A stretch of DNA of 47,092 nt. Source: a virus. Of the stretch, positions 11,081-47,092 are shown piece by piece. Both the position numbers and the translations under genes were made by a program. The stretch covers positions 1 through 47,092 of the IMG/VR virus record IMGVR_UViG_3300049718_000044; one strand, written 5' to 3'. The notes under the pieces were generated by a model. That model was given only the letters and a program-made list of their open reading frames with translations, was not told the origin of the DNA and searched no databases. Within the stretch, counting starts at the first letter, position 1. Every line of letters starts with the position of its first letter.

Positions 11081-11457
11081 AGCAACACCACGATCATGTT
11101 GTGAGAGATGATGTCGCCCGCAGGCATGTCGGGGGTGGAAGACTCCACACGCCAGGCAGTGCCATTGATGGACACGCGGTCTTGAGGCTGAGGCTCGAAC
11201 CCCGCGAGCCCTCGCGCGAGCACGTGCAACGCCTTCACCTTACGCTGGGCAAGAGATTTCTGCTCCTCGCGGTTGTCGGTGTAGGCGGACAAAGCAATAA
11301 AGTTGCCAACGCCCGAAGCGGTGATCGACGTTCCGGGCGTGACGACGCCACCGGCAGAGACGTTGGTCGCCACGGGGCGCGTGAATGTAACGGGAAATCC
11401 GAGGGTGCTGCACACCTCGAAGTCGTTCTGTTCAAGCTCCATGGATGCAATGGTCAT
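11077..11457 (-). CDS. Head closure / connector protein (hypothetical)
   Basis: 126 residues. Beta-rich with an internal polar helix (DNREEQKSLAQRKVKALHVLA). No motif I can name. It overlaps both neighbours by 4 bases, in the slot where siphoviruses encode the stopper or head-closure protein. The role is positional inference. Confidence 0.65.
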   Translation of the reverse strand: MTIASMELEQNDFEVCSTLGFPVTFTRPVATNVSAGGVVTPGTSITASGVGNFIALSAYTDNREEQKSLAQRKVKALHVLARGLAGFEPQPQDRVSINGTAWRVESSTPDMPAGDIISHNMIVVLL

Positions 11458-11888
11458 CCGAGCAACCTGCTGATCAAGTTGTCCGGGGTGTCGAGCTTCA
11501 AGGTCTGCTCGAACGACTCCCCGCCCACCACGTCGCCCGCACCTTGGCGATCGCGAAGGTCAACGTACTGCTGACCGTATGCAGTCTTGAGAAACGGATC
11601 CGCTTGCTGGGCATCAACTGCGGAGCCCGAGCGTGAGAAGGAATACCCGCGCCCACCACTTCGGGAAACAACATCACCCGAATTGAGAAGCGCGGGGTTC
11701 TGTGTCTGGGCGTTCAACCAGAGTTGAACCCAGTGGGCAACCAGATAGCCGGTGCCGATTTCCGCATACTCCTCGAACCGCTCCCCGATGTAGAGGGCGG
11801 CGTCGCCGAGGTACAACGTCACCACGTCGTCACCAACCAATGAGATTGGGAACTCCGGGTAGCGTGCGCGGAAACCGGCAATGTCCAT
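11454..11888 (-). CDS. Head-tail adaptor, DUF4054-like
   Basis: 144 residues from ATG at 11886-11888. An earlier in-frame start would extend 25 codons into the capsid gene and is unlikely. The opening DIAGFRARYPEFP and the helices LYLGDAALYIGERFEEYAEIG then GYLVAHWVQLWL match the DUF4054 adaptor pattern (F...FPEF, helix, aHxL). Such proteins bind under the portal ring as the first connector layer. Located right after the major capsid gene with a 5-base gap and coupled to the next gene by ATGA. Confidence 0.8.
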   Translation of the reverse strand: MDIAGFRARYPEFPISLVGDDVVTLYLGDAALYIGERFEEYAEIGTGYLVAHWVQLWLNAQTQNPALLNSGDVVSRSGGRGYSFSRSGSAVDAQQADPFLKTAYGQQYVDLRDRQGAGDVVGGESFEQTLKLDTPDNLISRLLG

Positions 11889-11893
11889 GGTGG

Positions 11894-13006
11894 TTAGCCA
11901 GCAGCCAGTACCTTGTCCAGGTAGTACATGGACTTCTTGTAGCGGACTTCGAGTCCACCACATCGGGCCTCGCCAGGGACGTTGATCGCCAGGTTCTTGT
12001 ACTGCGGAGCCGCGAACCTCAGCGCCATGGGGATGTGGAACACCAGGCGATTCGGGTCGCGAACGAAGAACACCACACGGCTGTTGCTGCCCGACACCGC
12101 GCCGCCCGTCGTGGCCGCGCCCGCAGTCTCAAGACCGGGGAGCGGATAGATGTTCAGGTCGATGTTCTTGGTCGCCTTGCAGATGTTGTTCCGCTTGAGG
12201 AACTCGATCACGGTGGTGTCCGCGTAGTCAGTACGCGCACGCGAGGTGAGCACGGTCCAGGCGGCCGGGGGGATCCCAACGTCCGTGACGAAGTCGTTGT
12301 AGTTGGACGCCGCATAGACAGCGTTCAACCCCTGGTTCAGATCTGCCAGGATGGTGGCCGCTGCGGTGCCTGCGGTGTCCCACGCGCCCGTGGTGGCCAC
12401 GGCCTGCGGGATGCTGTCCGTGTTGAAAAGCCCCGTCAGGTTCTTCTTGGTGCTGCCGAAGAACGCGGTGTAGTTAAGCCGACGCTCAACCATTTCCTGA
12501 GCGGCGGCGAGGCGCCGCTCGTTGAGCGGGCGACGAAGGTAGGCAGTCTCGCGCAACTCCTGAAAGGAGTAGCGGTAGCCCATGGGGATGTGCCCGACGT
12601 TCCGGATGGACTCGTCATACTGCACGTCCGCGAAGGGCATGTCGTCGCCCATGTCCGAACCGAAGTCCGCTTGGCCGACGATGTCCCCCTTCTCGTAACG
12701 AATGGACTGCGCCCACTCGCCCGCCTCGTTGGAGATGGGCAGCACGTCCCGGAAGCGCATCGGGGTGTACTGCTTCATGTACATGATCGCCTCGGTGTAG
12801 GCGAGCTGCGGGACCACGAACGAAGTCGCTTCGTTCGCGTCCTGGGCAATCGCGCCCTGCGGGGCGTCCGCGAGGATGTCCGAGTGCTTGGCGAAGAAGC
12901 TGCGCAACTGCTCCAAGCGGTTGGTGCGCATCTTCTTTTCCACCAGCTCGTTGCCGTCGTGGACCACGACCAGTTCAGTCTTGGGGATGAGGATTTGAAG
13001 GCTCAT
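11894..13006 (-). CDS. Major capsid protein (DUF2184 / Major_capsid_2 type)
   Basis: 370 residues with AGGAGACACAGAA as ribosome site before ATG. The N-terminal arm is charged (ELVEKKMRTNRLEQLRSFFAKH). It is followed by YTPMRFRDVLPISNEAGEW, then the long beta hairpin and FADVQYDESIRNVGHIPMGYRYSFQELRE in the DUF2184 pattern (HK97 fold). Later segments (GLFNTDSIPQ; DLNIYPLPGLETAG) are typical of this family. Expected to form the capsid shell; no obvious long propeptide, consistent with a separate scaffold made from the protease/scaffold gene next to it. Confidence 0.9.
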   Translation of the reverse strand: MSLQILIPKTELVVVHDGNELVEKKMRTNRLEQLRSFFAKHSDILADAPQGAIAQDANEATSFVVPQLAYTEAIMYMKQYTPMRFRDVLPISNEAGEWAQSIRYEKGDIVGQADFGSDMGDDMPFADVQYDESIRNVGHIPMGYRYSFQELRETAYLRRPLNERRLAAAQEMVERRLNYTAFFGSTKKNLTGLFNTDSIPQAVATTGAWDTAGTAAATILADLNQGLNAVYAASNYNDFVTDVGIPPAAWTVLTSRARTDYADTTVIEFLKRNNICKATKNIDLNIYPLPGLETAGAATTGGAVSGSNSRVVFFVRDPNRLVFHIPMALRFAAPQYKNLAINVPGEARCGGLEVRYKKSMYYLDKVLAAG

Positions 13007-13048: not shown

Positions 13049-13552
13049 TTAGGTCGCCGAGTAGATGGTTGCGCCCGTGTTGATGGCGATCTTGCCGATT
13101 TGTCCGCTGACCACGTCGCCCACCCAGAAGGCGTTGGGGATCGTCAGACGGCCCGCGGTGTCGGCCTTGCCCACGCGGGCCGAGCCGAGCGTGCCGCCAC
13201 CGCCAACCAGGGCGATCACGCCGTCGCCATCGACGACAGTCTCCGAGGCCTTAGCGTAGATCTCCCCCTCGTTGAGCAAGGGAACATCATCGTACTGGTT
13301 GAACGCAACCGCGCCCGACAACAGCGGGTGCAGGGGGCGCATGACTGAGATGCCCACGATGACATCCGTGGTTGCCGCAAGCAGCTTGCAGGTGCCGGTC
13401 GTGGTGCCCTTTGCGACCGCACGCCCAAAGGGGATAGCGGACGCGCCGCTATTCACGCGCGAACGGATGGTGCTAGGCACGCCCGTCGCAATTTGTCCTT
13501 CATAGCCGAGTCCAGCCAGAAGGCCACCGGGGGAGCTGAGATCTACTGCCAT
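13049..13552 (-). CDS. Capsid cement/decoration protein
   Basis: 167 residues, Gly/Ala/Val-rich, beta-barrel-like. It lies directly upstream of the major capsid gene in transcription order, where P22/lambda-type phages encode a cement or decoration subunit. The DVIVGISVMRPLHPL then VPLLNEGEIYAKASETV pattern resembles Gp24-type structural cement proteins. Weak GAAGAAA ribosome site before ATG at 13550-13552. High expression expected; role inferred from family resemblance plus position. Confidence 0.75.
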   Translation of the reverse strand: MAVDLSSPGGLLAGLGYEGQIATGVPSTIRSRVNSGASAIPFGRAVAKGTTTGTCKLLAATTDVIVGISVMRPLHPLLSGAVAFNQYDDVPLLNEGEIYAKASETVVDGDGVIALVGGGGTLGSARVGKADTAGRLTIPNAFWVGDVVSGQIGKIAINTGATIYSAT

Positions 13553-13597: not shown

Positions 13598-14218
13598 TTA
13601 CTGACGCTTTTCCTGCCAGCGGTTGTTCTGCTTGCGGGTCGCAGCTTCAACCGAAACTTCTTCCACGTCCGAGGCATCGTCGGACTTCGCGGAGATCTTC
13701 TTCTGGCCGACCACGGTGGGGTTGGCCAGGTTGCGCGCCTGCTGCTCGCGGCGTGCGGTGTTTTCATCGTTCGCGCTGGCGGCGATGACCGTGCGGAGAG
13801 CAACCTGCACCGTCGCATCGTCGGCATTGTCGAGGGCAACCCCGACCAGGACGGCGTCGGCCACGCGCTTGGCGTGCTCGTCGCGGCCCGTGATGTCGCC
13901 CAGCATGGCGCGACGGACGGCACCGGCAGAGCCCTCGGGCTTCACCTTGGGGCACAGTCGCGCGCAGTCGGACAGAACCGTGGCGTGGTCCTGCACCATG
14001 ACCGCAAGCTGCTCGGGCGTGACGATCTTCGCCTCAAGCTCTTTGACCTTGGCCACGTGCTCGGTGGCCAGCTTTGCCACCGCCTCCCCGTGCGCGGACT
14101 GCGCAGTGGTGAGAGCGTCTTGCGACGTCGCCAAGTCTTTGACCAACGTCTCAACGAGGCTTGCTTCCGTCTCGTCGAGTGAGTAGGCCACCCCTTTGAA
14201 TTGAACAGTGCGCTTCAT
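13598..14218 (-). CDS. Putative internal-start scaffold protein nested in the DUF2213 gene
   Basis: An in-frame ATG at 14216-14218 begins MKRTVQFKGVAYSLDETE and is preceded, at 6 bases, by AAGGAA, a strong ribosome site and stronger than that of the full-length gene. The product would be 206 residues, covering the coiled-coil half alone. Lambda makes its scaffold Nu3 in the same way from within the protease gene C. The site is visible; use of the site is inference. Confidence 0.6.
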   Translation of the reverse strand: MKRTVQFKGVAYSLDETEASLVETLVKDLATSQDALTTAQSAHGEAVAKLATEHVAKVKELEAKIVTPEQLAVMVQDHATVLSDCARLCPKVKPEGSAGAVRRAMLGDITGRDEHAKRVADAVLVGVALDNADDATVQVALRTVIAASANDENTARREQQARNLANPTVVGQKKISAKSDDASDVEEVSVEAATRKQNNRWQEKRQ

Positions 14219-14836
14219 TTTCGCTTCCTTCGGTTGGGTGTCTTCATCGGCGACACGGCATGATGGGCCGCCTCGTCCGCTCGGAACAATCGCGATGTGG
14301 TTCGCGCGAATCTTGCGCTGGACGGCGTCGTATGCCTCGCCCGTGTCAGGGTCGATCCCCGGCGTGCGATCGATGGCGTACTTGTACCCGGCCGACAACT
14401 GCTGGACACCCTTGTTGATGGCGTCCACGGCCTTAGCGTCGCGCACGTGAAGCGTCGCTTTCACCAGCCCCGCCTTGCGGTCGAATGAGCAATCGGAAGC
14501 GTGACCCTTGGCGAGCTGCGACCAACAGTCAGCAGTCACGCCCGCGGGGTACGCAATGGGGTCAGGGTGCCCAAGCGTGACGGACGCCTGCTCGAAACTC
14601 TTGATGGCATCGGCAGCCCCTACCTCGTCGGCAGGGCGGAACAGCTTGACCGTATCGTCGGGCTTCTTGAGTGGGAACGCGGACTGACCATCTGATGTGA
14701 AGATTTCGCGCACACGGTACGTCTGCACACCCACGCACGCAATCGCCGCAGGGGCCGACAGGAAGTTGTTCTCGTTGATCACCCGCTGGGACTGCTCGGG
14801 CAGCTCGAATCGGTCATAAGAAAAACAGGTTTCCAT
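13598..14836 (-). CDS. DUF2213-like prohead protease / scaffold protein
   Basis: 412 residues from ATG at 14834-14836, which overlaps the upstream TAA (TAATG). The N-terminal 200 residues look like the DUF2213 domain: YRVREIFTSDGQ, then SVTLGHPDPI, and AGYKYAIDRTPGIDPDTG with RANHIAIVPSGRGGPSC. The H..P and conserved Ser near AIVPSGRGG could be protease residues. The C-terminal half is a charged coiled coil (TEHVAKVKELEAKIVTPEQLA) ending in a basic Gln-rich tail, which suits a scaffold. It replaces separate protease and scaffold genes. See the nested start at 14218. Confidence 0.85.
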   Translation of the reverse strand: METCFSYDRFELPEQSQRVINENNFLSAPAAIACVGVQTYRVREIFTSDGQSAFPLKKPDDTVKLFRPADEVGAADAIKSFEQASVTLGHPDPIAYPAGVTADCWSQLAKGHASDCSFDRKAGLVKATLHVRDAKAVDAINKGVQQLSAGYKYAIDRTPGIDPDTGEAYDAVQRKIRANHIAIVPSGRGGPSCRVADEDTQPKEAKMKRTVQFKGVAYSLDETEASLVETLVKDLATSQDALTTAQSAHGEAVAKLATEHVAKVKELEAKIVTPEQLAVMVQDHATVLSDCARLCPKVKPEGSAGAVRRAMLGDITGRDEHAKRVADAVLVGVALDNADDATVQVALRTVIAASANDENTARREQQARNLANPTVVGQKKISAKSDDASDVEEVSVEAATRKQNNRWQEKRQ

Positions 14837-15756
14837 TAGTTGCCCCCGTAGCCCATGGAGTTGACGAGGTCTTCCAAATCGATGTGCGGAATGGCGCCGC
14901 ATCTACAGTTGATGTCTTCTCCGGGGTGACAAGGCTCGCCGTCGATGGTGCCCTCAAGCGGGCCTTCTTCTTCCCACGAGAAGACGCCGGGGCCATAGCC
15001 CACGTCCAGCTTTTCCATGGCCAGGTGTTCCGGCCGCGTGTTCATGTGCGTGCAGATCCAACCGTACAGCTTGATCCCTAGGTCGGTCTGCCGCACCTGA
15101 TTGAAAGCCCCGGACAGCTTGCCCGTTTGGTCGCGCGCAATGAGCGCCGCGCGCGAGTCGGTGACATCGCCCACCTTCTCGATGGCCTCGGTCAAGGTTT
15201 CGTAGTTGGTGCCCGCCTCCCAGTTCTTCGCCACGGCGTTGGCCACGTCTTGAAAATACTGGCTGGGGATGGACTCAATCAAATCGACGTTCTCGATCAG
15301 CTTCTCGCCCATCAACTCGCGGATACGCGGGGTGTCCGTGAGAAACGGCTCGATGTTGATGTCCATGGATGCGCGCACCGAGTTGGCCAAGCGCTCGTCA
15401 ACGGTCTTGATGTTCTTGCTGACAACCTTGGCGCCTAGGGCCTGCGCGCGAGGTGTGACCTTGGCAAACGAGCGCTGCTTCTCGGCGATGACATCTGCCG
15501 CCGCTGGCGCCAGTTTCGCATCGTGGGCGAACTTGCCGGGGAAGTGCCCGCGCAGGCCGGGAATCAAGTGCTGCCGTGCCCAGGCTCGAAGGCCGCGCAC
15601 GATCTCGTGCAACTCGGCCCGGTAGTACAGCTCGTTTTCCTTCGCTGGCATCACGGGGCGCAGCTTGCGCGGGCTCCGCACGCGGAACCGCTCGCTTCGA
15701 TGCCCAGGAGCGACGAAGCCAGGCCGGACAATCTGTGCGATATTTACGTGCAGCAT
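14836..15756 (-). CDS. Minor head morphogenesis protein (Mu gpF-like)
   Basis: 306 residues. The C-terminal third has the Mu F-like signature: ALIARDQTGKLSGAFNQVRQ, then W-C-T-x-M-N-T-R-P-E-H and PGEDINCRC (about residues 285-293), with the conserved Cys pair near the end. Such proteins are made in few copies, sit inside the procapsid near the portal and help DNA packaging or ejection. N-terminus is basic (RSERFRVRSPRKLRP). Context: downstream of portal and accessory virion genes, upstream of the protease/scaffold. A 57-base gap separates it from the repeat protein. Confidence 0.85.
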   Translation of the reverse strand: MLHVNIAQIVRPGFVAPGHRSERFRVRSPRKLRPVMPAKENELYYRAELHEIVRGLRAWARQHLIPGLRGHFPGKFAHDAKLAPAAADVIAEKQRSFAKVTPRAQALGAKVVSKNIKTVDERLANSVRASMDINIEPFLTDTPRIRELMGEKLIENVDLIESIPSQYFQDVANAVAKNWEAGTNYETLTEAIEKVGDVTDSRAALIARDQTGKLSGAFNQVRQTDLGIKLYGWICTHMNTRPEHLAMEKLDVGYGPGVFSWEEEGPLEGTIDGEPCHPGEDINCRCGAIPHIDLEDLVNSMGYGGN

Positions 15757-15813
15757 CTATGCCATCTCAAGCGATGGTAGCCCCGAGAATTGTTAAAGTA
15801 AAGGTTGAAGTTT

Positions 15814-18768
15814 TCACATGCCCACAGGATGCACCCAAGTCACGCTCCGACCAGGAAACAAGGACCATCCACTGCGAGGCTGCCACACCAGAATTGTGCT
15901 AGGCACGAGTGCCCAATGGCCGGGATACACGATAGGCGCACCGCTGTCTGCCACAACCGAGCAAGCAGCCAACCCGCACGCCGCCGAAACAGAAAGTGTG
16001 TGTTCTTGTCCTGCGCTGGTGTCCGAGGTCGCCCCGGCCGCGAATGCGCTGACTATCAAGCCACCGTGCCCAGCAACAGCCTCACACGTCGCGCCCGCGC
16101 ACGCTGCCGTGATAGTTGCAGGCGTAACCTGTGTTGACGTTGCGCTCGCGGTTGCGCCTGCACACGTCGCGGCGACGGTCGCGGCGATTGATTGGCCTGC
16201 CGTTACTGTAGCCGTGGCCGCCCCCGCTGTTGCATCCACAGCGGCAGACATTACCTGCGTGGCGACGACCGAACACGTGGCGCCCGCCGCGTTGGCGTTG
16301 ATGCCTGCACCTGACAATCCAGGCGATGCGTAAGCCTCGCATGTTGCTCCCGCACACGTAGCATTGATCACGGCAGGCGTGACTTGCGTTGCCGAGATGC
16401 TTGCCGTTGCGCCCGCGCAGGACGCCGCGACAGTTGCGCCGGTTGATTGTCTTGCGACAGCCGAGCACGTTGCAGCGCCGGCCGAAGCGTTGACGGTCGT
16501 GGCAGTGATCTGAGTTGCCGACGCGGCGCAAGTCGCCCCCGCCGCAAACGCTGTAACGACAGCACCAACGAGACCTGGTGAGGCTACCGCCGCGCAGGTT
16601 GCGCCTGCTGCACTCGCGTTGATGGTAGCCGCTATGACCTGTGATGCGGTTGCGCTCGCGGTAGCGGCGCCGGCCACGGCCACGACTTCGATGGTGCACT
16701 GTTGCCCGGCCACGACCGCTGCCGTGGATGCTCCCGCTGACGCCAGCACTGCCGCCGAATGCGTTTGTCCAGCGGTCGCCGATGCTGTAGCACCGGCGAC
16801 GGTTGCTGCGACTGCTACCGAAGTGACCTGTGTGGCGGATGCTGCCGCCGTCGCGGCGTTGGCGTTGGCGTTGACGGTAGCCCCGTTCACCTCCGTTGAC
16901 GCGACCACCGAACAGGAGGCCCCGGCTGCCGACGCGGCGATTGCTATCGGCGTGATCTGCGTAGCGCCGGCTGTAGCGGTGGCTGCGGCGGCAGACGCCA
17001 CCACGACAGACGCTGCGGCTTGTGAGGCTGCCATCGTGCAGGTTGCGCCGGCTGCGAGCGCAGAAGCGCTTGATGGGGTAAGCTGCGTGGCAACAACGCC
17101 AGCGGTGGCGGCGCCGGCTGTTGTTGATACCACGGTGGGCATCTGTTGTGTGGCCACAATCGCGGCGGTAGAACCGGCCGCCGAAGCTGAAACGGACGCC
17201 GGTATGCTCTGGCCTGCTGTAACGGCTGAAGTAGCGCCAGCAGCAGACGCATTGATCGACGTATCAGTTGCACCGCTGTTAAACGTCGGAGCTTCTGGTC
17301 CGGCAGCCCCGGTGAGGATGCCGGGATTCATGTTTCGGCTGTGACCGCTGTCGTCCGTGTAGCTCGCGGCTATCGGCCCCACGATCCACCTCTGCCGATA
17401 GTGTGCCCAGCATCCCGTGTATGGGGTCGCATCCGCCGCAAGCATCGCCTGAATAACAGCGTTCGATGGCACGCTTGCACCTGCAACAATCGTCAGGTTG
17501 TAGGTGTTGGACGCGTCGGTCGCTGAGTAGTCGTCGGAACAATCGTAAAATCCGCCGACGTGGTCAAATGTGAGATCTGCAAACCCGACAACTGAGTAGT
17601 CAATCGTCGTGCTGTACGGGCCTTGAACGGTCCCGCTTGACCCCAACTGGTACCACATGTAGATAGTCGCCGATGTCGCGCCAACCACCACCATGTGGCC
17701 GCAACCGATCCAACCTTTTGCGGTGACGTAGTCGGTGGTAAAGCTTGCGAAATCGTGCTGGGCCATCAGGTTCTCGCTGCCGTTCAGGTCGAGCCCAATG
17801 GTCCCTATGACGGTCGAACCGTCTACCTGGTCCCAACGAATCGTGAAATTGCACTGGTACTGATTGTATGAGGCATTCTCCAGATAGATGCCAACGGTGT
17901 CACCCCTTGCGCGTGACCACGGAGCCACGCCGGGATCTGGCATCCTCCACCATTTCGTCGCGGTGGCGCCCGTGGTGATGGTACTTCCCGCGGGGGCGTC
18001 GTTTTCTATATTGATGCGTGCGTATGTTGACTCCAGGCTGGTCGAGTACACCTCTGGTGGGGCTGGCCCTGGTACGAAAAGGAACGTCCACGCGACCCAA
18101 TTGTCTGCCCCGTTTGCCGTCTGTAAGAGCGTCGCTGTTGCGACTGCGCCCGCCGCCACGTTGTCTCGATAGACTACGCCCAAGCTGTAGCCATTGGCTG
18201 TCGTATTGACGTTGACTGCAGTGCCGTTGATCGCGTAGCTGTCACCCGATGCCTGCTTGGTGTTGGGGGTGTTGTTGTCGCACGAAATATAGACGTGGAC
18301 ACGAGTGTCACCAGCAACGGCATTGGCCGCCGTTGCTGGCGCGGTCATGGTCATAGTCGCACCTGAACCGACCACCGTGACCGCGCTATCCCGAATCGGC
18401 GCCGTCGGATCCCACTGCCCGGAAGGCGAGCGCCACACCTCGCCCACGGCGCCCCAGACAGTTCCCGTATTCACGGTGAACACGGGGTTGGTCACATCTG
18501 TGTAGCCGGCACCCCACTGCTTCTTGAATATCGCGAAGTGGTGCGTGCTATCGGGCGACTGGTCCGCGCTGGCTGTGAGGAGTCCCCATCCCTGCCCTGT
18601 TGGCGGTGTGAATGTGCACGTGTTCGCATTCGCGAAATTGGCGAACACAAACACTAACTGCCAGTCGTACTTCTGAGGGGTATACCCCGCAAGAGTAGTA
18701 AAGTTCGGCGTCCGGGTTGCCCCGGTGGTGCCGGACACTACTGTCGTGCACCCGAGCGGACTGGCCAT
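15814..18768 (-). CDS. Large virion protein with tandem 21-residue repeats (head fibre candidate)
   Basis: 984 residues. Residues 1-240 look like a jelly-roll or lectin-like domain (TTLAGYTPQKYDWQLVFVF; WGAVGEVWRSPSGQWDP). Residues 260-480 look like a second, concanavalin/laminin-G-like beta domain (LENASYNQYQCNFTIRWDQV; GFYDCSDDYSATDASNTYN). Residues about 503-940 are about 21 tandem copies of a 21-residue unit, roughly TxVxASAAGATCxxxATQxTP. The last 40 residues are Trp/Pro-rich (ALVPSTILVWQPRSGWSLFPG). No membrane anchor or signal was seen. It sits among head genes, between the portal-side gene and the Mu F-like gene, not with the tail. I infer a head-attached fibre or adhesin; family unknown to me. 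Confidence 0.85.
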   Translation of the reverse strand: MASPLGCTTVVSGTTGATRTPNFTTLAGYTPQKYDWQLVFVFANFANANTCTFTPPTGQGWGLLTASADQSPDSTHHFAIFKKQWGAGYTDVTNPVFTVNTGTVWGAVGEVWRSPSGQWDPTAPIRDSAVTVVGSGATMTMTAPATAANAVAGDTRVHVYISCDNNTPNTKQASGDSYAINGTAVNVNTTANGYSLGVVYRDNVAAGAVATATLLQTANGADNWVAWTFLFVPGPAPPEVYSTSLESTYARINIENDAPAGSTITTGATATKWWRMPDPGVAPWSRARGDTVGIYLENASYNQYQCNFTIRWDQVDGSTVIGTIGLDLNGSENLMAQHDFASFTTDYVTAKGWIGCGHMVVVGATSATIYMWYQLGSSGTVQGPYSTTIDYSVVGFADLTFDHVGGFYDCSDDYSATDASNTYNLTIVAGASVPSNAVIQAMLAADATPYTGCWAHYRQRWIVGPIAASYTDDSGHSRNMNPGILTGAAGPEAPTFNSGATDTSINASAAGATSAVTAGQSIPASVSASAAGSTAAIVATQQMPTVVSTTAGAATAGVVATQLTPSSASALAAGATCTMAASQAAASVVVASAAAATATAGATQITPIAIAASAAGASCSVVASTEVNGATVNANANAATAAASATQVTSVAVAATVAGATASATAGQTHSAAVLASAGASTAAVVAGQQCTIEVVAVAGAATASATASQVIAATINASAAGATCAAVASPGLVGAVVTAFAAGATCAASATQITATTVNASAGAATCSAVARQSTGATVAASCAGATASISATQVTPAVINATCAGATCEAYASPGLSGAGINANAAGATCSVVATQVMSAAVDATAGAATATVTAGQSIAATVAATCAGATASATSTQVTPATITAACAGATCEAVAGHGGLIVSAFAAGATSDTSAGQEHTLSVSAACGLAACSVVADSGAPIVYPGHWALVPSTILVWQPRSGWSLFPGRSVTWVHPVGM
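15950..17260 (-). repeat. About 21 tandem 63-bp coding repeats (21-residue unit)
   Basis: Degenerate in-frame repeats, Ala-rich with recurrent GATC/GATA, ATQ and TP or PGLxG at unit ends. Occasional units carry PGL(V/S)G instead of QxTP. Codons differ between units, so the repeats are not recent DNA duplications; selection appears to act on the protein pattern. The regular period suggests a beta-solenoid or collagen-like rod. Confidence 0.85.
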
Positions 18769-18789
18769 GGTCCGGTTCGATCCTAGCTA

Positions 18790-19191
18790 TTACGCCCCGT
18801 CAGGCTGATTCACAACAACCGAGGTGATCGTAGACGTCAGCCCGGAAGTGTAAGTCAATGACGGAACCGTTACTTCTGCGCCGCTCGTTGCGACTACCAT
18901 TTGCCACAGTGCCGTCGTGCCGTCGCTGGCATACACGCGCGCAAACTGCGCCGTTCCGTTGGCTGCGTTTGTGGCGTTGGCAATGGCCGCCGCAGTAGCA
19001 ACGCCGTTGCTGTCCGTGAATGCGGTTGCAGCCAAAGTGTGCTCGACAAGCATCACGTGACTTCCGAGAGATGCCGCCACGTTGGCGGGCGCCGCACCGC
19101 CGGTAGTGTCATAGATGCGCAGCTTTCCGTTGTTGGCGAGCGCCACGCGGGCAGCGTTGGCAGTGTGGCGGCTGTTGTCTGATTCTTTCAT
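18790..19191 (-). CDS. Small virion accessory protein (hypothetical)
   Basis: 133 residues, ATG with AAGGA ribosome site. Ala/Thr/Val-rich, beta-prone (GKLRIYDTTGGAAP; TAQFARVYASDGT; ALWQMVVATSG). It resembles small structural proteins encoded beside portal genes in environmental siphoviruses, but I cannot name a family. It lies 3 bases after the portal stop and 21 bases before the repeat protein, suggesting the two form a head-accessory pair. It could be the base that anchors the repeat-bearing fibre; this is inference. Confidence 0.7.
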   Translation of the reverse strand: MKESDNSRHTANAARVALANNGKLRIYDTTGGAAPANVAASLGSHVMLVEHTLAATAFTDSNGVATAAAIANATNAANGTAQFARVYASDGTTALWQMVVATSGAEVTVPSLTYTSGLTSTITSVVVNQPDGA

Positions 19192-19194
19192 GGT

Positions 19195-20997
19195 TCATTT
19201 TCCTTTCGTCTTCGGTTTCTGTTCGCCCATCTTGGGGTTTTGAATCACGGGCGCAGGCTCCGGACCGCCTGCGTCTGCTTCCACTGCCTTTGCAATCACC
19301 GCCCCGTGCTTCGCCGTGAACTCTGTGATGGTCAGGTTACCGTCATCGCCCGGCCACGGGGGGAAGCCCATCTGTGCAAGGGCTTGGTTGACGGTGACGA
19401 TTGACCCTTGCATGGCCGGGGTAAGCGTGAGCTGCGTAGCCTCGGCCACGGGGGCGACGGGTGTTGCTTCGGACGACCCGACGTTGCTCGGCTGCGCGGC
19501 CTCTGGCGGTTGCAGCTTCAACGCCGCAAGCTCGGCCAGGCGTGCCGTCTGCTCATGCCCCGCCGCCTCGACCTCAGATACCATACTCACGTCCGCGTCT
19601 TCGAGCATTGGCATGAAGTCCTCTTCCTTGAGCTGCCTGGTGACGGCAGCAGCGGGGAGCGCCATGCACTCGACGTATGCCTTGCGCGTGGTGGCCTGCA
19701 CTAGCTCGCGGTCGGCCTTATCTTTCTTGCTCTCAACACGTAGCGGGTTGAATGTGAACTTGAACCCAGGAGGCTGGGATCCGAACAGGTGCGCGCACAG
19801 CACCTTGTACCACTTGGCGATGGGGCCTCGACATACAACAGCCTGCTCGCTCGCGATGCTCTTGTCATAATCCTGCTCCTCGCCCGCGCCCGACGAGTTG
19901 AGCCCCGGTGACGACTCACCCAGCAGCTTGGTGCGCGGTGTGCGCGAGGCCGCGGCGATGGCAGACTCGAACTTGTCCACCACACCCGCGAGCCCGGTGA
20001 AGTTGTTCCCCTTCTTCTCGTACTTGTCCTTGGCGTCCATGATGAGCATGCGGTTCATGCTCTTAATCGTCTGCGCGAGGCCGAAGCGTTTCGCGATCTT
20101 CTCGTCGGCCTTGGGGCTTGCCATCGTGGCCGCAAGACCATCGACCATCATCACGTCGATGTTGGCTTCGAAGAACATCGTTGCGAGCCCCGCCATCGTG
20201 GCCGCGTAGTCCTTCACGGATTCAAGCGCGACTTGCAACACGCTGTCGTGCCACATGCCATTGGCCAGCCAGTGGATGTAATCCAACCGCTCGCCATCGA
20301 AGAAGATCATGCGCGACCGATGGATCTGCGTTGGCGTCTCGACCCCGCCCACAGTGTAGAACCTAGGCTTGCGGAAGTCCGGCCCGTAGTCGAGGAAGCT
20401 CTGTTGCAGGTCTTGAGGCCCGAGCAACCAGCGGTCGAACATCTCAACCCCACGCAGGCACCCGCGCGGCAGCTTGTCCAGGTCTACGGGCTCGGCCCAG
20501 TTGCTATCAAGCGCGCCGTTGAAAAGCAGGATGCCCGCCGCCCCGCCGTACTGGCGCGACCACTTGATGCCGTCGAAAAACTTGTTGCGGAAATCGAAGA
20601 ACGCATCCGCATCGTCAAGGGTCTGCTGCCTGCTGGTGTCTTCCTTCTTGCCGTCCCACTCGCACGCAACCCACGCGCGGCACATATCCTCGGCGCGCAC
20701 CCCGACGATGTTCTTGGCCAGCCAGTTGGTGCGGCACATGCTCGACGCTTGCTCGCGGTCGATCTGAACCGTATAACCCCAGTTGCTGTAGCTGCGCTTG
20801 TCTCGCTCGGTGCCCAGCCCTGCGACCGCGTTCTGCAAACCGTCGGACGAGAACGCGCCCATGAGCGCATCCTGGCCAATGTAGAACGAGCGCAACGTCT
20901 GCTCATGTGGGGCGAGCATGTTGCGAATGCCTTCAAGCTCCGAACGCACGAGGGCTAGCTGCTTGTCTCGCTTGCCTTTTCCTAGGAATTCAAACAT
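19195..20997 (-). CDS. Portal protein (DUF1073 family)
   Basis: 600 residues. Recognisable DUF1073-type elements are: MCRTNWLAKNIVGVRAEDMCR (near residue 85), the ILLFNGALDSNWAEPVDL segment, TQIHRSRMIFFDGERL, and SRTPRTKLLGESSPGLNSSG (about residues 345-365), followed by Asp/Tyr. The C-terminal 100 residues are Pro/Ala-rich and end in a basic tail. It forms the dodecameric ring at the capsid vertex through which DNA is pumped by the terminase encoded immediately before it. Ribosome site GGGGG precedes ATG at 20995-20997; 8-base gap from the terminase gene. Confidence 0.92.
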   Translation of the reverse strand: MFEFLGKGKRDKQLALVRSELEGIRNMLAPHEQTLRSFYIGQDALMGAFSSDGLQNAVAGLGTERDKRSYSNWGYTVQIDREQASSMCRTNWLAKNIVGVRAEDMCRAWVACEWDGKKEDTSRQQTLDDADAFFDFRNKFFDGIKWSRQYGGAAGILLFNGALDSNWAEPVDLDKLPRGCLRGVEMFDRWLLGPQDLQQSFLDYGPDFRKPRFYTVGGVETPTQIHRSRMIFFDGERLDYIHWLANGMWHDSVLQVALESVKDYAATMAGLATMFFEANIDVMMVDGLAATMASPKADEKIAKRFGLAQTIKSMNRMLIMDAKDKYEKKGNNFTGLAGVVDKFESAIAAASRTPRTKLLGESSPGLNSSGAGEEQDYDKSIASEQAVVCRGPIAKWYKVLCAHLFGSQPPGFKFTFNPLRVESKKDKADRELVQATTRKAYVECMALPAAAVTRQLKEEDFMPMLEDADVSMVSEVEAAGHEQTARLAELAALKLQPPEAAQPSNVGSSEATPVAPVAEATQLTLTPAMQGSIVTVNQALAQMGFPPWPGDDGNLTITEFTAKHGAVIAKAVEADAGGPEPAPVIQNPKMGEQKPKTKGK

Positions 20998-21005
20998 GCA
21001 GCCCC

Positions 21006-22334
21006 CTATACGTCGAACATGGTCGGCGTGCGAGTGATCAACAATTCGTGCGCGTACCGCACGCTATCCCATCCGTGCTCATAGCCGGGCTTGAGCTTGC
21101 GGGACACGACCCCGGTCAGCTTGTCCGTCTGGTACGACCACAGCCGCGCCTCTTCGTGAACGTGTGCGCACGATGTATGGATAAAGATGCGCTCAAACCC
21201 GCGCAGGTACGTCACCCCGTCCTCGACACAGCCGGGCCACTTCTCGCACGATTCGATCATGAAGTTTTCATTCTTCATGTGCGAGATGGTTTCGGGGCGC
21301 GCATTGTCGGCCTTGATGATGTACTTGCGCACGTCGGTCACGGTATCGAACAGCGCGGGCAGGTCGATGGTTTCGCAGCCGAGCGCGAAGGCCTCCTCTG
21401 CAACGTAGAGATTACGGCGCAGCGGAAGGTATGCCTCGTCCCCGCTCGACGTGGTGAACGTCTTGCCCATGTCTTCCGGGTTGAGCACTTCCACAAACGA
21501 CTTGGTGAGTGCCGTTGGGTCTTGGGAGAATCCCCAGTCCGCGCCAAAGTACGGCCCGCCCGTGAACGTAGCTCGCAGGTCGAAGTCTTTCAGGCACCAC
21601 TTGCCGTTGAGCACCTGGGCGTCGTTCTTGAACCAAGTCTTGCCGCCCCAGATGTGCTCATAGCGTTCGGGGTCTTGCTCGCGCATGTACTCCGCTTGCT
21701 GGCGCAGCACGCGCGGCAACCACGGGTTGTCATCCCAGCCCACTTGGAGCACGACCGCGCCGGGCAGCCGCTTCGAGGGGATCGCGAACATCTGGTAGAT
21801 GGGATCGGTTTCCTGGATCGGGTTGAACGAAATCCAGATCTCACTACCAGGCTTTCGGATCGTGGGGTCGAGGGTGTCCCAGCTCGCTTGACTGGTCGTC
21901 TCACCTTCTTCGATCCAGCAGATGTCCACGGCCTCGGTGGACTTGAGCGAAGCGACGTTATGATGGAGCCCCGCGAAGATGAACTGACTGCCCGTCCACA
22001 CGTTCACGATCTCGGTGTCGCGAACGATGAACTCCTCTTCGAGCCCCATGCGCGCGATCTGACTTTTCAGCAGGAAGTGAACCGACTCACGGATCGACTT
22101 CATGTACTCGCGGGCGCAGAGGATGCGCAGCTTTTTCTTGCACGCGAGCATGAGCAAGGCGCGGGCGATGGTCCACGACTTGACCGAGCCGCGACCCCCA
22201 TGCACCACGCGGTAGCGCGGGCCGGGCACGAAGAACTTGACCATCTTCTTTGGAATCTCGAAGTCCAAGGACTCGCCACGCGCGGGGCCCAGGTCTTCGT
22301 TCGGCAGGCGCGGCGTGATTTGAACAGCTTCCAT
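21006..22334 (-). CDS. Terminase large subunit (Terminase_3-like)
   Basis: 442 residues from ATG at 22332-22334, which overlaps the previous stop as TGATG. Two GTG codons just upstream (22337, 22340) are alternatives. ATPase: Walker A HGGRGSVKSWTIARALL (about residues 46-62) and Walker B VDICWIEEGE (about 135-144), followed by a coupling motif. Nuclease: FGADWGFSQDPTAL (about 250) with the first catalytic Asp, and later EEAFALGCETIDLP and NARPETISHMK. It translocates DNA into the prohead and cuts it. Length is normal for the family. Headful cutting would agree with a circularly permuted genome. Confidence 0.94.
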   Translation of the reverse strand: MEAVQITPRLPNEDLGPARGESLDFEIPKKMVKFFVPGPRYRVVHGGRGSVKSWTIARALLMLACKKKLRILCAREYMKSIRESVHFLLKSQIARMGLEEEFIVRDTEIVNVWTGSQFIFAGLHHNVASLKSTEAVDICWIEEGETTSQASWDTLDPTIRKPGSEIWISFNPIQETDPIYQMFAIPSKRLPGAVVLQVGWDDNPWLPRVLRQQAEYMREQDPERYEHIWGGKTWFKNDAQVLNGKWCLKDFDLRATFTGGPYFGADWGFSQDPTALTKSFVEVLNPEDMGKTFTTSSGDEAYLPLRRNLYVAEEAFALGCETIDLPALFDTVTDVRKYIIKADNARPETISHMKNENFMIESCEKWPGCVEDGVTYLRGFERIFIHTSCAHVHEEARLWSYQTDKLTGVVSRKLKPGYEHGWDSVRYAHELLITRTPTMFDV

Positions 22335-28174: not shown

Positions 28175-28467
28175 TCGTCATCGATTGGTCACAGTCCCAG
28201 CTCGGCACCCTACGGGCCGATGCGTTCCACAGGTTCATCACCAGCAGCGCCCGCGCGCGCGCAATGGCCATCGAGGACTACCAGCGCACCACGATGCTCG
28301 TGCCCATCAAGCCGCCGCCCGAGGTGGTGACAGGGGAGTACCTGCCACCGGGCGCGCCGCGAAGGAACTACAATCGCGGTACGTGGAAGCATGGCGCGGC
28401 TGTGTACAGCGACGGGACTACGTTCTATACGGTGTACAGCGACGGGACTACGTTCTATACGGTGTGA
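28171..28467 (+). CDS. Small protein with duplicated C-terminus (hypothetical)
   Basis: 98 residues from TTG at 28171 that overlaps the primase stop (TTGA), with GGGGTGAAG upstream. Starts MIVIDWSQSQLG. The frame upstream of this start lies inside the primase gene and is a shadow. The end is two perfect copies of YSDGTTFYTV, encoded by a 30-bp tandem DNA duplication. No known domain. The first strand with Asp (IVID) is reminiscent of nuclease or kinase cores, but the rest does not support that. Confidence 0.6.
   Translation: MIVIDWSQSQLGTLRADAFHRFITSSARARAMAIEDYQRTTMLVPIKPPPEVVTGEYLPPGAPRRNYNRGTWKHGAAVYSDGTTFYTVYSDGTTFYTV
28402..28461 (+). repeat. Two exact 30-bp tandem copies
   Basis: Unit GTGTACAGCGACGGGACTAC plus GTTCTATACG, twice head to tail and in frame, then GTGTGA ends the gene. 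Exact identity means a recent slip or unequal crossover. Copy number may vary among virions. Confidence 0.95.
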
Positions 28468-35428: not shown

Positions 35429-35499
35429 TTGGGTGTAGCTCAATTGGTAGAGCGCCAGATTTAATCTGGTCGTTGCGGGTTCAAGTCCCGCCACTTGAC
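35429..35499 (+). tRNA. tRNA-like gene, apparent anticodon UUA (suppressor type or degenerate)
   Basis: Cloverleaf by hand: acceptor TTGGGTG/CACTTGA (7 bp, three G-U pairs), TA at 8-9, D-arm GCTC-AATTGGTA-GAGC, anticodon arm GCCAG-ATTTAAT-CTGGT, variable CGTT, T-arm GCGGG-TTCAAGT-CCCGC, discriminator C. With the 7-base loop, U33 and A37 are in place and the anticodon reads TTA (35461-35463), which would decode UAA. Base 26 appears missing. CCA is not encoded (CGA follows). The short variable loop excludes class II Leu/Ser identity. The T- and D-arms are textbook, so a tRNA origin is sure; function and charging are not. Confidence 0.8.
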
Positions 35500-35512
35500 C
35501 GAAGGTGAAACG

Positions 35513-41055: not shown

Positions 41056-41246
41056 AAAGCCCGCAGGACGTAGACCGCGCTGGCCTGGCGTCGCAAGCCA
41101 GCCTAGCCACGGTGGTGTACTGGCACGGGGAGGTGTCCAGGCTGGTGGCCAAGCTGAAACACGCACGCGCGGAGCTTGCCGCCGCCGAGGATGCACACCA
41201 GACAAACGAGATCGCACGCGCTGCCGCCAGCGCCCCAGGAGAATGA
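41052..41246 (+). CDS. Small helical protein (hypothetical)
   Basis: 64 residues, mostly one long helix (VYWHGEVSRLVAKLKHARAE, then LAAAEDAHQTNEIARAAA). Coupled by ATGA to the previous gene and nearly to the next. With its neighbour it may form a helical pair; unknown. Confidence 0.6.
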   Translation: MKSPQDVDRAGLASQASLATVVYWHGEVSRLVAKLKHARAELAAAEDAHQTNEIARAAASAPGE

Positions 41247-41248
41247 CC

Positions 41249-42721
41249 ATGAAGCTGTTCACTTGCCTATCACCTTCGCACGTTCCCATGTACGACGCTC
41301 ACTTTGGGCCGTCGGTGTTGCTATCCGGCCTGGACCTGCAACCGCCACGCACGCTTGAACAGGTATGCCCTACGGGGGTCTATGAGTCGCCAGGGTTCCA
41401 AGAAACCTGCCTGGCCAAGATGCACTACCTGCGCGACGTGCTTGTGGCAGAGTCCGAAAGCCGCGAGCCGTTCGTCTTCTGCGACGTAGACATTCGGTTC
41501 TATGGGCTCGTGGTGGAAGACCTGCTCGAAATCGGCGAGAAGACAGACGATGCCGCCGACGGTGACGGGCCGAACCCGCTGTTTCAATCCGACGGGCCGG
41601 GCGGCCCCTGCACCGGGTTCATGCTCTGGTATCCCTGCCCGTGGGCCGTCGCGCTGGTCGAGGACGTGATCCAAGTCATGGGCGAGAAGCACATCGAAGA
41701 TCAGATCGGCATGCAGCACGTGTTGCGCGATCGAGGCCTGACCGCAGCCCTCTTGCCCGAGCGGTATTGGACCGTGGGGCAGACGGGGCGCCACTGGAAC
41801 CCGGGCGACCCGGTGCGCCCACCGTCGGATCTGCTCATGCATCACGCGAATTGGACCGTCGGGGTCGAGAACAAGATGGCGCTGCTTGATGCGGTCAGGC
41901 TTGCGCACGCGACGCCTGCACCTCAAGGGTATGACCTACCGCCACATTCGAGCAAGGCTTCGCATCTACTTCCGCCCGAAGTCGTCGTACGCAGCGCCGC
42001 CATCGAGCTGCAAGACCCGCTACCGCTGGCACTAGTGCTGCAAACCTGGCAGGGGGACGCGGCCGAGGCTTGCCGCCTGCTGCGCTTGCTGGCCGACATC
42101 GAGCCCGTCGAGGTGCGAGACGACGTGCTTGTGGTGGCGGTGCAGGAAGGCACTCAGCACCGTGACCTGGAAGACGCCATTTTGTACGCTGGCAAGAAGT
42201 TCGCCGTGACGACGATCAGCACTGAGGTGGACATCCGCAAGGAGTACCCCGGAATTGCCTTTGACCCGTGGGCCTCGGCAGTTGATCAGCTCTACCGCTG
42301 GCGCTGCACCGGCACGCTGCGCCCGGCATCGGCCTTCTTCTTCGAGCCCGACGGCTGCCCGCTACGCCGCGACTGGCGCGCGTGGCTCAAGCGTGCCCAC
42401 AGCGAGACGCTACAGCACGGCAAGAACGTGACAGGGGCCAGGATGCGCGAGCAAGACCACATCAACGGATCGCTGGTCATGCACCTTGACCTGTGGGCCA
42501 ACAAGCCGAGCCTGCGTAGCTGCCCGCCCAACGCCCCTTGGGACATCTTCCACGGTCACACGCTGGTCGCCGAGTCCCACCCGTCGCACGTCATTCGCAA
42601 CGAGTTCGGGCTTCACGTTACGCGCGAGATGTTCCGGCAGTACCGGCGTGAGGGTGCTTGGCTGACGGGGGTCAAGGACGGCTCGCACCACGCGCAGGCC
42701 CGCGAGTTGTTGGCACCATGA
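41249..42721 (+). CDS. Two-domain glycosyltransferase-like protein
   Basis: 490 residues from ATG at 41249 with AGGAG at the right distance; an ATG at 41243 is too close to it. N-terminal domain, residues 1-230: LFTCLSPSHVPMY, FVFCDVDIRF (DxD nucleotide-sugar site), FQSDGPGGPCTGFMLW and EDQIGMQHVL, as in DxD-type nucleotide-diphospho-sugar transferases. C-terminal domain, residues 260-490: ASAFFFEPDGCPLRRDWRAW (EPD-x-x-P-L-R), HINGSLVMHLDLW and WDIFHGHTLV, as in another phage transferase family. Two transferases in one chain suggest sequential sugar additions to DNA bases or virion protein. It lies at the end of the early block. Confidence 0.78.
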   Translation: MKLFTCLSPSHVPMYDAHFGPSVLLSGLDLQPPRTLEQVCPTGVYESPGFQETCLAKMHYLRDVLVAESESREPFVFCDVDIRFYGLVVEDLLEIGEKTDDAADGDGPNPLFQSDGPGGPCTGFMLWYPCPWAVALVEDVIQVMGEKHIEDQIGMQHVLRDRGLTAALLPERYWTVGQTGRHWNPGDPVRPPSDLLMHHANWTVGVENKMALLDAVRLAHATPAPQGYDLPPHSSKASHLLPPEVVVRSAAIELQDPLPLALVLQTWQGDAAEACRLLRLLADIEPVEVRDDVLVVAVQEGTQHRDLEDAILYAGKKFAVTTISTEVDIRKEYPGIAFDPWASAVDQLYRWRCTGTLRPASAFFFEPDGCPLRRDWRAWLKRAHSETLQHGKNVTGARMREQDHINGSLVMHLDLWANKPSLRSCPPNAPWDIFHGHTLVAESHPSHVIRNEFGLHVTREMFRQYRREGAWLTGVKDGSHHAQARELLAP

Positions 42722-45897: not shown

Positions 45898-47092
45898 TCA
45901 GTTGAACTCCTGCACGCGCAGATTGCCCGTGTACGCCGCTACAACGCAGCGCCCTCCCTCGTTGGCCTGGATTTTTAGGTACACAGTATGGGTTCCTCCG
46001 GGCGTGACAGCATATGTCCCAAAGAGCGCTAGTTGCGTCCGCCCAGACGAAACCGTTGTGTTCGCGATTGGAGGCAATACCGTTGAATCTACGGTGAGCT
46101 GAATCGAACAGTAGGTGGCTCCATTCAAGGAAGCGGCAGCCCCTGCGTCGATAATGAGGGACGCTGCCGCTGTGTTCGCCGTCGTTATGTTGAGCACTGT
46201 GGACCACGTATAGCCGTAGTCTGAGGTGATATCCGAGGTGGTGTACGTGTAGTCTGTGTTAAGCATCCTGCCGGACACCCAAGCGTCAAGTTTTCCGTTA
46301 CTGTTACCCAGCGCCGCCACTCCCGCGCCTGGCGTAGCGGAGTACGTTGGTCCGTTTGTTATGTGCGTTGCGTCTGTTATTGCCGCCAAATGCGACGCTG
46401 AGCATGTTCCGCTGCAGCCTATGCCAGCTCCGCTACCGTTTGCTACCCATTGAGTATTGGTTGAAGTACCGTCAACAGTCTCAAGAACATATCCTGGGGT
46501 TCCGTTGCTGCTAGGCTTCTGCACATCGATCAAAGCATGACCGTATGGTGTTAGATTCGATCCCTCTATTGTCCCCGATGTTACGATGCCGTCAGGACCT
46601 AATCTGACAGCATGGAAGCCGAACGTTCCCCCACCGTCCACCGTAAGGCGCACACCATAATACCCACCGACAATGGGCCCTATCCTAAGCTCGTTTCCAT
46701 ATATGTTGTTCCACGGTGCCGTAGAGCTTCCGACGTTTAGGTTATTGTAAAACGGTAGCAAATCCTGATTGATGGCCGTCGGGCTGGTCAGGTTGGACAG
46801 AGAGCTATTTGCTCCAGTCGTCGAAGCAAACCGAGAGTCATTCCCCGCCGCGACGGTGCCGGCGGTGGTGCCGACGGGTAGTTGTGCGATAGGAACCTTG
46901 GTCGTGCCGTCGAGGGTGGCAGGCGTGACCCACGTTCCTTGCCCGCCGCCTGCCGGGTAGACAACGGCCTGGCCTGCTGCTGGCGCGGTCGCAGGGTCTA
47001 GCATCGAGTAGCTAGCGGTCGTGGCAGCAACACCGTGGGTGACGGCGCCGGAGGTGGCGCCGTTGAGCTTGAGTGACAAAGCGCCAACGGCC
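45898..47092 (-). CDS. Tail fibre-like protein, C-terminal part (continues at base 906 to 1)
   Basis: Continuation of the junction-spanning gene; the real start is the ATG at 904-906, not the TTG inside the repeat. This part contributes 355 residues plus the TGA at 45898-45900. It contains a low-complexity linker (ASTTGANSSLSNLTSPTAIN), a beta-rich section (YNNLNVGSSTAPWNNIYGNE; IGPIVGGYYGVRLTVDGGG) and a C-terminal domain (TSDYGYTWSTVLNITTANTA; VKDLR-free, ending GNLRVQEFN). The NNIYG...L.I. and similar segments occur in phage fibres just before chaperone or receptor-binding domains. No intramolecular chaperone motif was seen. Confidence 0.85.
   Translation of the reverse strand, partial: AVGALSLKLNGATSGAVTHGVAATTASYSMLDPATAPAAGQAVVYPAGGGQGTWVTPATLDGTTKVPIAQLPVGTTAGTVAAGNDSRFASTTGANSSLSNLTSPTAINQDLLPFYNNLNVGSSTAPWNNIYGNELRIGPIVGGYYGVRLTVDGGGTFGFHAVRLGPDGIVTSGTIEGSNLTPYGHALIDVQKPSSNGTPGYVLETVDGTSTNTQWVANGSGAGIGCSGTCSASHLAAITDATHITNGPTYSATPGAGVAALGNSNGKLDAWVSGRMLNTDYTYTTSDITSDYGYTWSTVLNITTANTAAASLIIDAGAAASLNGATYCSIQLTVDSTVLPPIANTTVSSGRTQLALFGTYAVTPGGTHTVYLKIQANEGGRCVVAAYTGNLRVQEFN
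46966..47092. repeat. Right copy of 127-bp terminal direct repeat
   Basis: Second copy of bases 1..127, identical base for base as read. Joining the copies keeps the minus-strand frame open across the junction, which supports circularity. Confidence 0.97.

Follow-up and report, generated by a model that had tools for sequence, protein, structure and literature searches.

Why should a gene for a long, fibre-like protein built largely of 21-residue units lie among the head genes of a virus? The question is raised by the IMG/VR record IMGVR_UViG_3300049718_000044, a 47,092-base virus record analysed over its whole length (hereafter the window), in which a 984-residue repeat protein is encoded on the minus strand (15814..18768), 21 bases after the gene for a 133-residue protein (18790..19191, minus strand) that is itself separated by 3 bases from the portal gene. 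With moderate confidence, we read the 984-residue protein as a fibre of the neck or portal vertex held by a connector of the garland or whisker type. The two genes would then form a two-gene cassette within the head operon, in which the 133-residue protein would serve as a small connector, like A511 gp105, garland or neck-whisker proteins, and anchor the 984-residue protein to the virion, most probably at the neck beneath the portal vertex. The 984-residue protein would be the fibre itself, with an N-terminal part of two probable beta domains, a beta-rich stalk of 21 units and a Trp/Pro-rich end, and would probably make reversible contact with a host surface glycan or appendage before the tail binds. 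The binding of the two proteins to each other, the attachment at the neck, the orientation of the fibre and the binding of glycan are steps that we infer from the evidence below.

The small partner and the recurrence of the gene pair

The 133-residue protein matches PHROG 3758, a family annotated as "virion structural protein" (E 2.2e-18), and relatives were found in the related phage record G020, in Vibrio phage 367.14 and in a further seven distinct viral contigs, making ten with the window; the contig search itself gave 10 loci, among them the window's twin (L067) and two pairs (L071/L072 and L074/L075). All ten aligned members match the family, and their profile matches the PDB chains 9rkv_A (E 3e-16) and 44nx_B (E 4e-15). 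Chain 9rkv_A carries the residues of gp014, the 141-residue garland protein of Agrobacterium phage 7-7-1, and 9RKV is a tail-fibre map of that phage in which the garland protein is bound to the tail fibres (here and below, papers on other systems are cited from the parts of their text that were available). PDB entry 44nx was named in no paper found by our literature search, and among the papers listed for Bas63 (10 of 71 in one search and 8 of 720 in another) none names it. The AlphaFold2 (AF2) model of the 133-residue protein (mean predicted local distance difference test score, pLDDT, 85) has an N-terminal helix plus a beta-sandwich, and aligns with 9rkv_A at Z 12.3 over 127 residues, with the Sf14 neck chain 9c39_K at Z 9.6 over 107 residues and with the Bas63 connector chain 9mt4_K at Z 9.4. 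It also aligns with phi812 baseplate chains (Z 7.8 and 7.7) and with A511 gp105 (6hhk_A, Z 7.6 over 112 residues), values under the tool's caution line of 8, below which a match may reflect merely a common arrangement. The nine best structural matches all come from phages or an archaeal virus and are chains of a neck, connector, baseplate, tail or fibre adaptor; T4 gp8 is not among the matches listed. Judged by its modelled fold, the 133-residue protein is a connector of the gp105, garland or whisker type.

These matches bear directly on where the fibre would sit; the sequence-only reading had suggested attachment to the capsid. In that case the 133-residue protein would cap capsid pentamers or hexamers and the 984-residue protein would stand on the head, which agrees with the position of both genes among head genes and has a precedent in the head spike of RcGTA, where a jelly-roll base pentamer sits on capsid pentamers, carries one flexible fibre and binds capsule. 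Phage 7-7-1 likewise has capsid fibres of 88-114 nm, the protein of which is called unknown in the available text of a 2025 cryo-electron microscopy paper. We nevertheless regard a capsid-surface fibre as unlikely, given the identity of the top nine matches and given that the alternating Ile/Leu-Gly docking peptide of the RcGTA type is not found at the N-terminus of the 984-residue protein when this is read directly; the RcGTA base protein is also not among the structural matches listed for the 133-residue model, which does not exclude a likeness. Because the structural relatives of the partner come from neck (Sf14), connector (Bas63) and baseplate (7-7-1, phi812, A511) maps, the neck is a likelier site than the capsid surface. 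The earlier proposal is thus supported indirectly as far as a fibre or virion part is concerned, by the connector beside it, by the recurrence of the pair and by mass spectrometry (MS) of most of the comparable gene cluster in 7-7-1; attachment to the capsid is its less likely part.

A capsid-attached fibre had also been thought an unusual architecture; the two-gene arrangement itself recurs in other phages. In 6 of the 10 loci the portal gene is immediately followed by the PHROG 3758 gene, with portals of five Pfam families among them: PF06381 in the window, PF05133 in L068, PF16510 in L069 (just above the cutoff), PF05136 in L070 and PF04860 in L072, with a portal recognised by PHROG in L073. 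A protein with 20- or 21-residue repeats at z>6 is encoded in 8 of the 10 loci with PHROG 3758 and in 3 of 60 without it (Fisher p 7e-7), a test that is only indicative since the ten came from small-protein searches and most of the 60 from capsid searches. Downstream proteins with such units occur in L065 (938 residues), L066 (542 residues), L073, L074 and L076, and with a 20-residue unit in L069 and L072; when the window and L065, which served as search seeds, are left out, 6 of 8 loci still pass z>6. At L070, z>4 is reached solely in an antisense frame (2.8 in the sense frame), and L068 stops about 200 bases past its PHROG 3758 gene. The count of 70 loci excludes L001, L002, L004, L064, L067, L071, L075, L077 and L078 (duplicates and phage 7-7-1) as well as L079-L092, and includes one locus, L063, from a bacterial metagenome-assembled genome (MAG); some near-duplicates remain among the 60. 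Among the loci without PHROG 3758, L026 and L045 are one sequence counted twice, with no repeat by eye, and L040, one of the three that pass, is a capsid relative of the window in which the locus lies at a contig end, with the portal side outside the contig and no PHROG 3758 gene seen.

Two observations on individual loci may be added here. The 449-residue protein encoded at positions 3-1352 of L040, upstream of Mu F, has 14 units of 21 residues that are rich in Ala and Ser, and its gene is a candidate for the positional equivalent of the 984-residue gene. By eye, the proteins at L065:1376-4192 (minus strand) and L072:3884-4945 (plus strand) end in a short hydrophobic strand with Pro (IIVVKP and IIIVHP), possibly a docking strand.

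The repeat protein

The translation bears out most of what had been seen in the 984-residue protein from its letters, namely about 21 repeats of 21 residues, a preceding N-terminal region of about 500 residues and a Trp/Pro-rich end. Residues 1-238 (18055..18768; this and the following segments are on the minus strand) look by eye like the beta jelly-roll of a phage fibre protein, and residues 239-500 (17269..18054) look ConA/LamG-like, with no library match. Two beta domains in this region are therefore probable, as far as recognition by eye goes; the first gave no significant BLASTP match to the G020 protein (E 0.35), with a best E of 0.028 against the two jelly-roll copies of that protein. 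An iterative profile places 21 units of 20-22 residues in a rod spanning residues 502-944 (15937..17265), and residues 945-984 (15817..15936) make up the Trp/Pro-rich end, which is modelled with low confidence.

The spacing of the units is 21 residues in 16 of 20 cases, 22 in three and 20 in one. Identity at lag 21 across residues 486-945 is 0.335, against a maximum of 0.232 in 500 shuffles over lags 15-44, and mean pairwise identity between units is 41%, compared with 17% after shuffling residues within units (maximum 19% in 300 runs). With 152 Ala and 13 charged or His residues among 441, the rod is rich in Ala, Thr, Ser, Val and Gly, and several unit positions are nearly fixed: Ala6 and Ala17 (each 20/21), Ala11 and Thr12 (each 19/21) and Val/Ile4 (20/21), with Gln at position 19 in 16 of the 21 units. 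The codons beneath this pattern vary, as had been noted earlier: among 1,824 pairs of identical residues the same codon is used at a frequency of 0.299, compared with 0.310 expected from codon usage. Neighbouring units are no closer to each other than are all pairs (identity 0.40 versus 0.41), and Tandem Repeats Finder listed no array of 21-residue period in the DNA of the gene. Chance-level codon agreement together with adjacent units that are no more alike indicates that the array did not arise by recent slippage; it is old and has been maintained by selection on the protein. The same pattern makes it scarcely credible that the repeats amount to nothing more than disordered filler of low complexity, as their bias toward Ala, Thr, Ser, Val and Gly and the moderate confidence of the structural model could suggest, since positions A6, A11, T12, A17 and V/I4 are kept despite scrambled codons.

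We treat the rod as the stalk of a fibre. Small residues alternating with variable ones would be compatible with thin-cored beta strands, and a structure prediction of the repeats, proposed as a check in the sequence-only reading, agrees in part: the AF2 model of residues 777-984 has strands with turns at AGAT, at a pLDDT of only 68. In this model, built on an alignment of 3 rows, pLDDT by tens of residues is 75-87 across the first 100 residues and 27-75 afterwards, lowest at the C-terminal end. Foldseek with the rod model returned no match at E<=0.001; many of the best 50 of its 72 rows are beta-helix proteins, which is a hint only. If the stalk were a thin beta-solenoid, it would be about 10 nm long (21 x 4.7 Å).

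Relatives of the 984-residue protein itself are scarce. Searches of Pfam, PHROG, NCBIfam and PDB gave no match to it at the thresholds applied, no PHROG matched it up to E 0.1, PHROG 7918 included, and no relative was found among 50,697 phage records, 72,556 plasmids or the 44 related records behind 44 of 63 loci. The contig scans rest on a few exact peptide patterns and so reach close relatives only. Within that reach, genome contigs gave nothing, and viral contigs, scanned with the complete protein and with two of its parts, gave only L001, an IMG/VR contig that is 100% identical, besides the record of the window itself. Literature searches, with a coverage that leaves out most subscription journals, returned no paper on 21-residue repeats in connection with phage, fibre and portal, and none that we recognised as describing a cassette of connector plus repeat fibre.

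The insertion site and the placement of the proposed fibre

The head operon runs on the minus strand in the order terminase large subunit, portal, 133-residue protein, 984-residue protein, Mu F-like protein, DUF2213 protein, cement protein and major capsid protein, so that the position between the portal side and the Mu F-like gene that had been read from the sequence agrees with library matches. Pfam and PHROG identify the portal protein (Phage_portal_3, PF06381, 19195..20997), the Mu F-like minor head protein (14836..15756) and the DUF2213 head maturation protease (13598..14902), and Pfam the capsid cement protein of the E217 gp24/Pam3 gp6 type (13049..13552) and the major capsid protein (11894..13006). 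A DUF4054 protein (11454..11963, library match), like these on the minus strand, is a candidate neck adaptor to which whiskers might attach. Promoter- and terminator-like sites across 14800-21100 were at chance level.

Given such a position, between portal and Mu F-like genes, the protein could also be internal to the head, act as a scaffold or be ejected, its Ala-rich part then being packaged or ejected rather than displayed. We consider this very improbable, as the model has strands and no helices (moderate confidence), the partner is a connector, and LamG and SASA proteins occupy the site in two relatives. In the first of these, L013, a LamG protein with a match to a neck passage family (PHROG 7918) lies between portal and protease, and in the second, L059, a SASA esterase with an Fn3 domain. 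Glycosyltransferase-like genes, recognised by eye, occupy the portal-protease site in L038 and L050-L052, a BNR_4 protein lies between Mu F and protease in Rhizobium phage RHph_N17, and many other relatives have nothing large between portal and protease. Functions related to surfaces or glycans thus recur at the site. The window also encodes a 492-residue Nucleotid_trans protein elsewhere (41243-42721, plus strand), with lookalikes by eye at the portal-Mu F/protease site in L038, L050, L051 and L052, and this gene seems to move between sites.

Whether a displayed fibre belongs to the neck or to the tail is a further question. The genes might merely be carried in the head operon and specify a tail or baseplate fibre, with the 133-residue protein still a garland-type connector, and the origin of 9rkv_A in the tail-fibre map of 7-7-1 is in keeping with this. 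That explanation seems unlikely to us, as six of the ten PHROG 3758 loci lie directly after a portal gene and the window's own tail-tip gene begins about 11 kb downstream. Several results do, however, weigh against our reading of a connector and fibre at the neck. The garland of phage Milano, which is close to 7-7-1, sits on the baseplate, and no fibres emanate from its neck collar according to the available part of the Milano neck paper, both of which would suit a baseplate fibre; so would the pair in Vibrio phage 367.14, where the neighbouring genes, judged by eye, are baseplate genes of spike-like and wedge-like type, so that a tail position is possible. Apart from the sampling difference behind the Fisher test, PHROG 3758 occurs in just 1 of the 44 other records searched, many of them fragmentary, and the rod model is weak (its pLDDT and its Foldseek matches, none significant, are given above). 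In 7-7-1, gp009, which has the clearest units there, is absent from the available part of the MS table, though its record calls it a structural protein. The family was also found in bacteria. L063 comes from a Hydrogenophilaceae MAG, and of 398 genomes of the same phylum 7 have PHROG 3758, at 14 places, or 8 distinct loci when the seven G046 copies are counted once; these loci all extend only about 1.4 kb downstream. The formal test for 21-residue units was passed by 2 of these 8 loci, L081 (z 15.1) and L082 (z 10.7). In G046 a degenerate spacing of 21 residues can be made out by eye but scores only z 0.8-2.3, and no such units are present in L080, in L083 or in L079, where a stop breaks the frame. 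This mixed outcome indicates that the link between PHROG 3758 and repeats is frequent and not universal. As a separate observation, in L085 and L087, from two bacterial genomes, the proteins encoded after PHROG 3758 have units of 14/28 residues (28-residue z 12.9 and 9.0).

The units themselves also weigh on this side. A column-permutation test covered 21 pairs from 7 proteins, with the short protein of L070 and the 20-residue units of L069 and L072 left aside. It found a common unit pattern in L074, L065 and L076 (p<=2e-4), to which L066 probably belongs (p 0.001-0.003). The window's units have no common column pattern with any of the other six proteins in the test (p 0.18-0.998; 0.96 for L074, 0.998 for L065, 0.82 for L076 and 0.91 for L066), nor with the units of L040 (p 0.50). 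The window, L073 and 7-7-1 gp009 have no reliable match to the L074/L065/L076 pattern, the lowest p being 0.016 (L076-L073). A cross-family alignment of units that looked plausible by eye was dropped from modelling after the permutation test, and on these p values shared ancestry of the window's units with other 21-residue repeats is rejected for now. Unit length and the neighbouring gene are thus all that is shared, which raises the question of why a length of 20-22 residues is kept while the sequence is not.

Some features of the window lie apart from these genes. The only tRNA found (35429-35500, plus strand) has the anticodon TTA and would read the stop TAA; as TAA nonetheless closes 10 of 34 genes chosen by eye, there is no sign of recoding. 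An exact 30-base unit is present in 2.1 copies within overlapping open reading frames (28402-28465, plus strand). A tail-tip gene lies near the left end (1-905), and an open reading frame on the minus strand is open at the right end (45898-47092); circular permutation or near-completeness of the record is possible.

Comparison with known systems

The phi29-type head fibre motif consists of helix-turn-helix repeats, whereas the repeats of the 984-residue protein are modelled, with moderate confidence, as strands without a helix. The adenovirus-type triple beta-spiral is a trimeric repeat of about 15 residues; the period of the rod is 21. The neck passage structure proteins of lactococcal phages (PHROG 7918) have a counterpart in the relative L013, described above, and the 984-residue protein differs in matching no PHROG. 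A511 gp105 has a fold like that of the 133-residue protein, at the Z score given above, and together with T4 gp8 offers a likeness in type, although these connectors are larger and lie in the baseplate; we know of no repeat fibre gene that accompanies them. The two RcGTA proteins (Rcc01079/Rcc01080) may work alike, as a small beta base with a long flexible fibre, but their base is pentameric on capsid pentamers, and no match to the window's proteins was found.

Sf14 provides a closer parallel at the neck. Its whisker proteins gp30 and gp31 are numbered directly after the portal gp29, as the 133- and 984-residue genes follow the portal here, its neck map includes chain 9c39_K with the fold of the 133-residue protein, and one gp30 chain threads both whiskers. 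It differs in that, in the available part of the Sf14 paper, the whiskers consist of chains of gp30 and gp31 alone and a long repeat fibre is not mentioned. According to the accessible text of the Milano tail paper, garland proteins resemble T4 gp8 and A511 gp105, and the A511 dimers are arranged as beads along an extended chain, while the string in Milano is unclear. We put forward as a doubtful but instructive variant that each 20-22-residue unit docks one copy or dimer of the 133-residue protein, with the number of repeats setting the length of the fibre. If this were so, the result would be a two-component fibre of up to about 150 nm when extended, and both the threading of garlands and the occurrence of repeats of the same length and different sequence beside one small protein would be explained. 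Such a fibre could form the capsid fibres of the flagellotropic phage 7-7-1, from gp012 with gp009-gp011.

In 7-7-1, the genes run gp014, gp013, gp012, gp011, gp010, gp009, a few genes before terminase and portal. The product gp014 matches the profile of the 133-residue family, and a second member, gp012 (PHROG 3758), lies upstream of gp009, which has five 21-residue units; gp010 has a weak signal at lag 21. By mass, gp014, gp012, gp011 and gp010 correspond to entries in the available part of Table 1 of the 2012 proteome, in which 24 virion proteins were detected by MS; gp013 is not in that table. The garlands of 7-7-1 and Milano differ from the arrangement proposed for the window in encircling baseplate fibres; in Milano the garland proteins are gp125 and gp127. 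For 7-7-1, gp009-gp012 would form a candidate list for the capsid fibres, and a portable cassette that accompanies portals from five Pfam families would point to the genes for neck or head fibres that are now unannotated. The occurrence of the same kind of gene pair in phages as differently built as these suggests a shared host-contact fibre.

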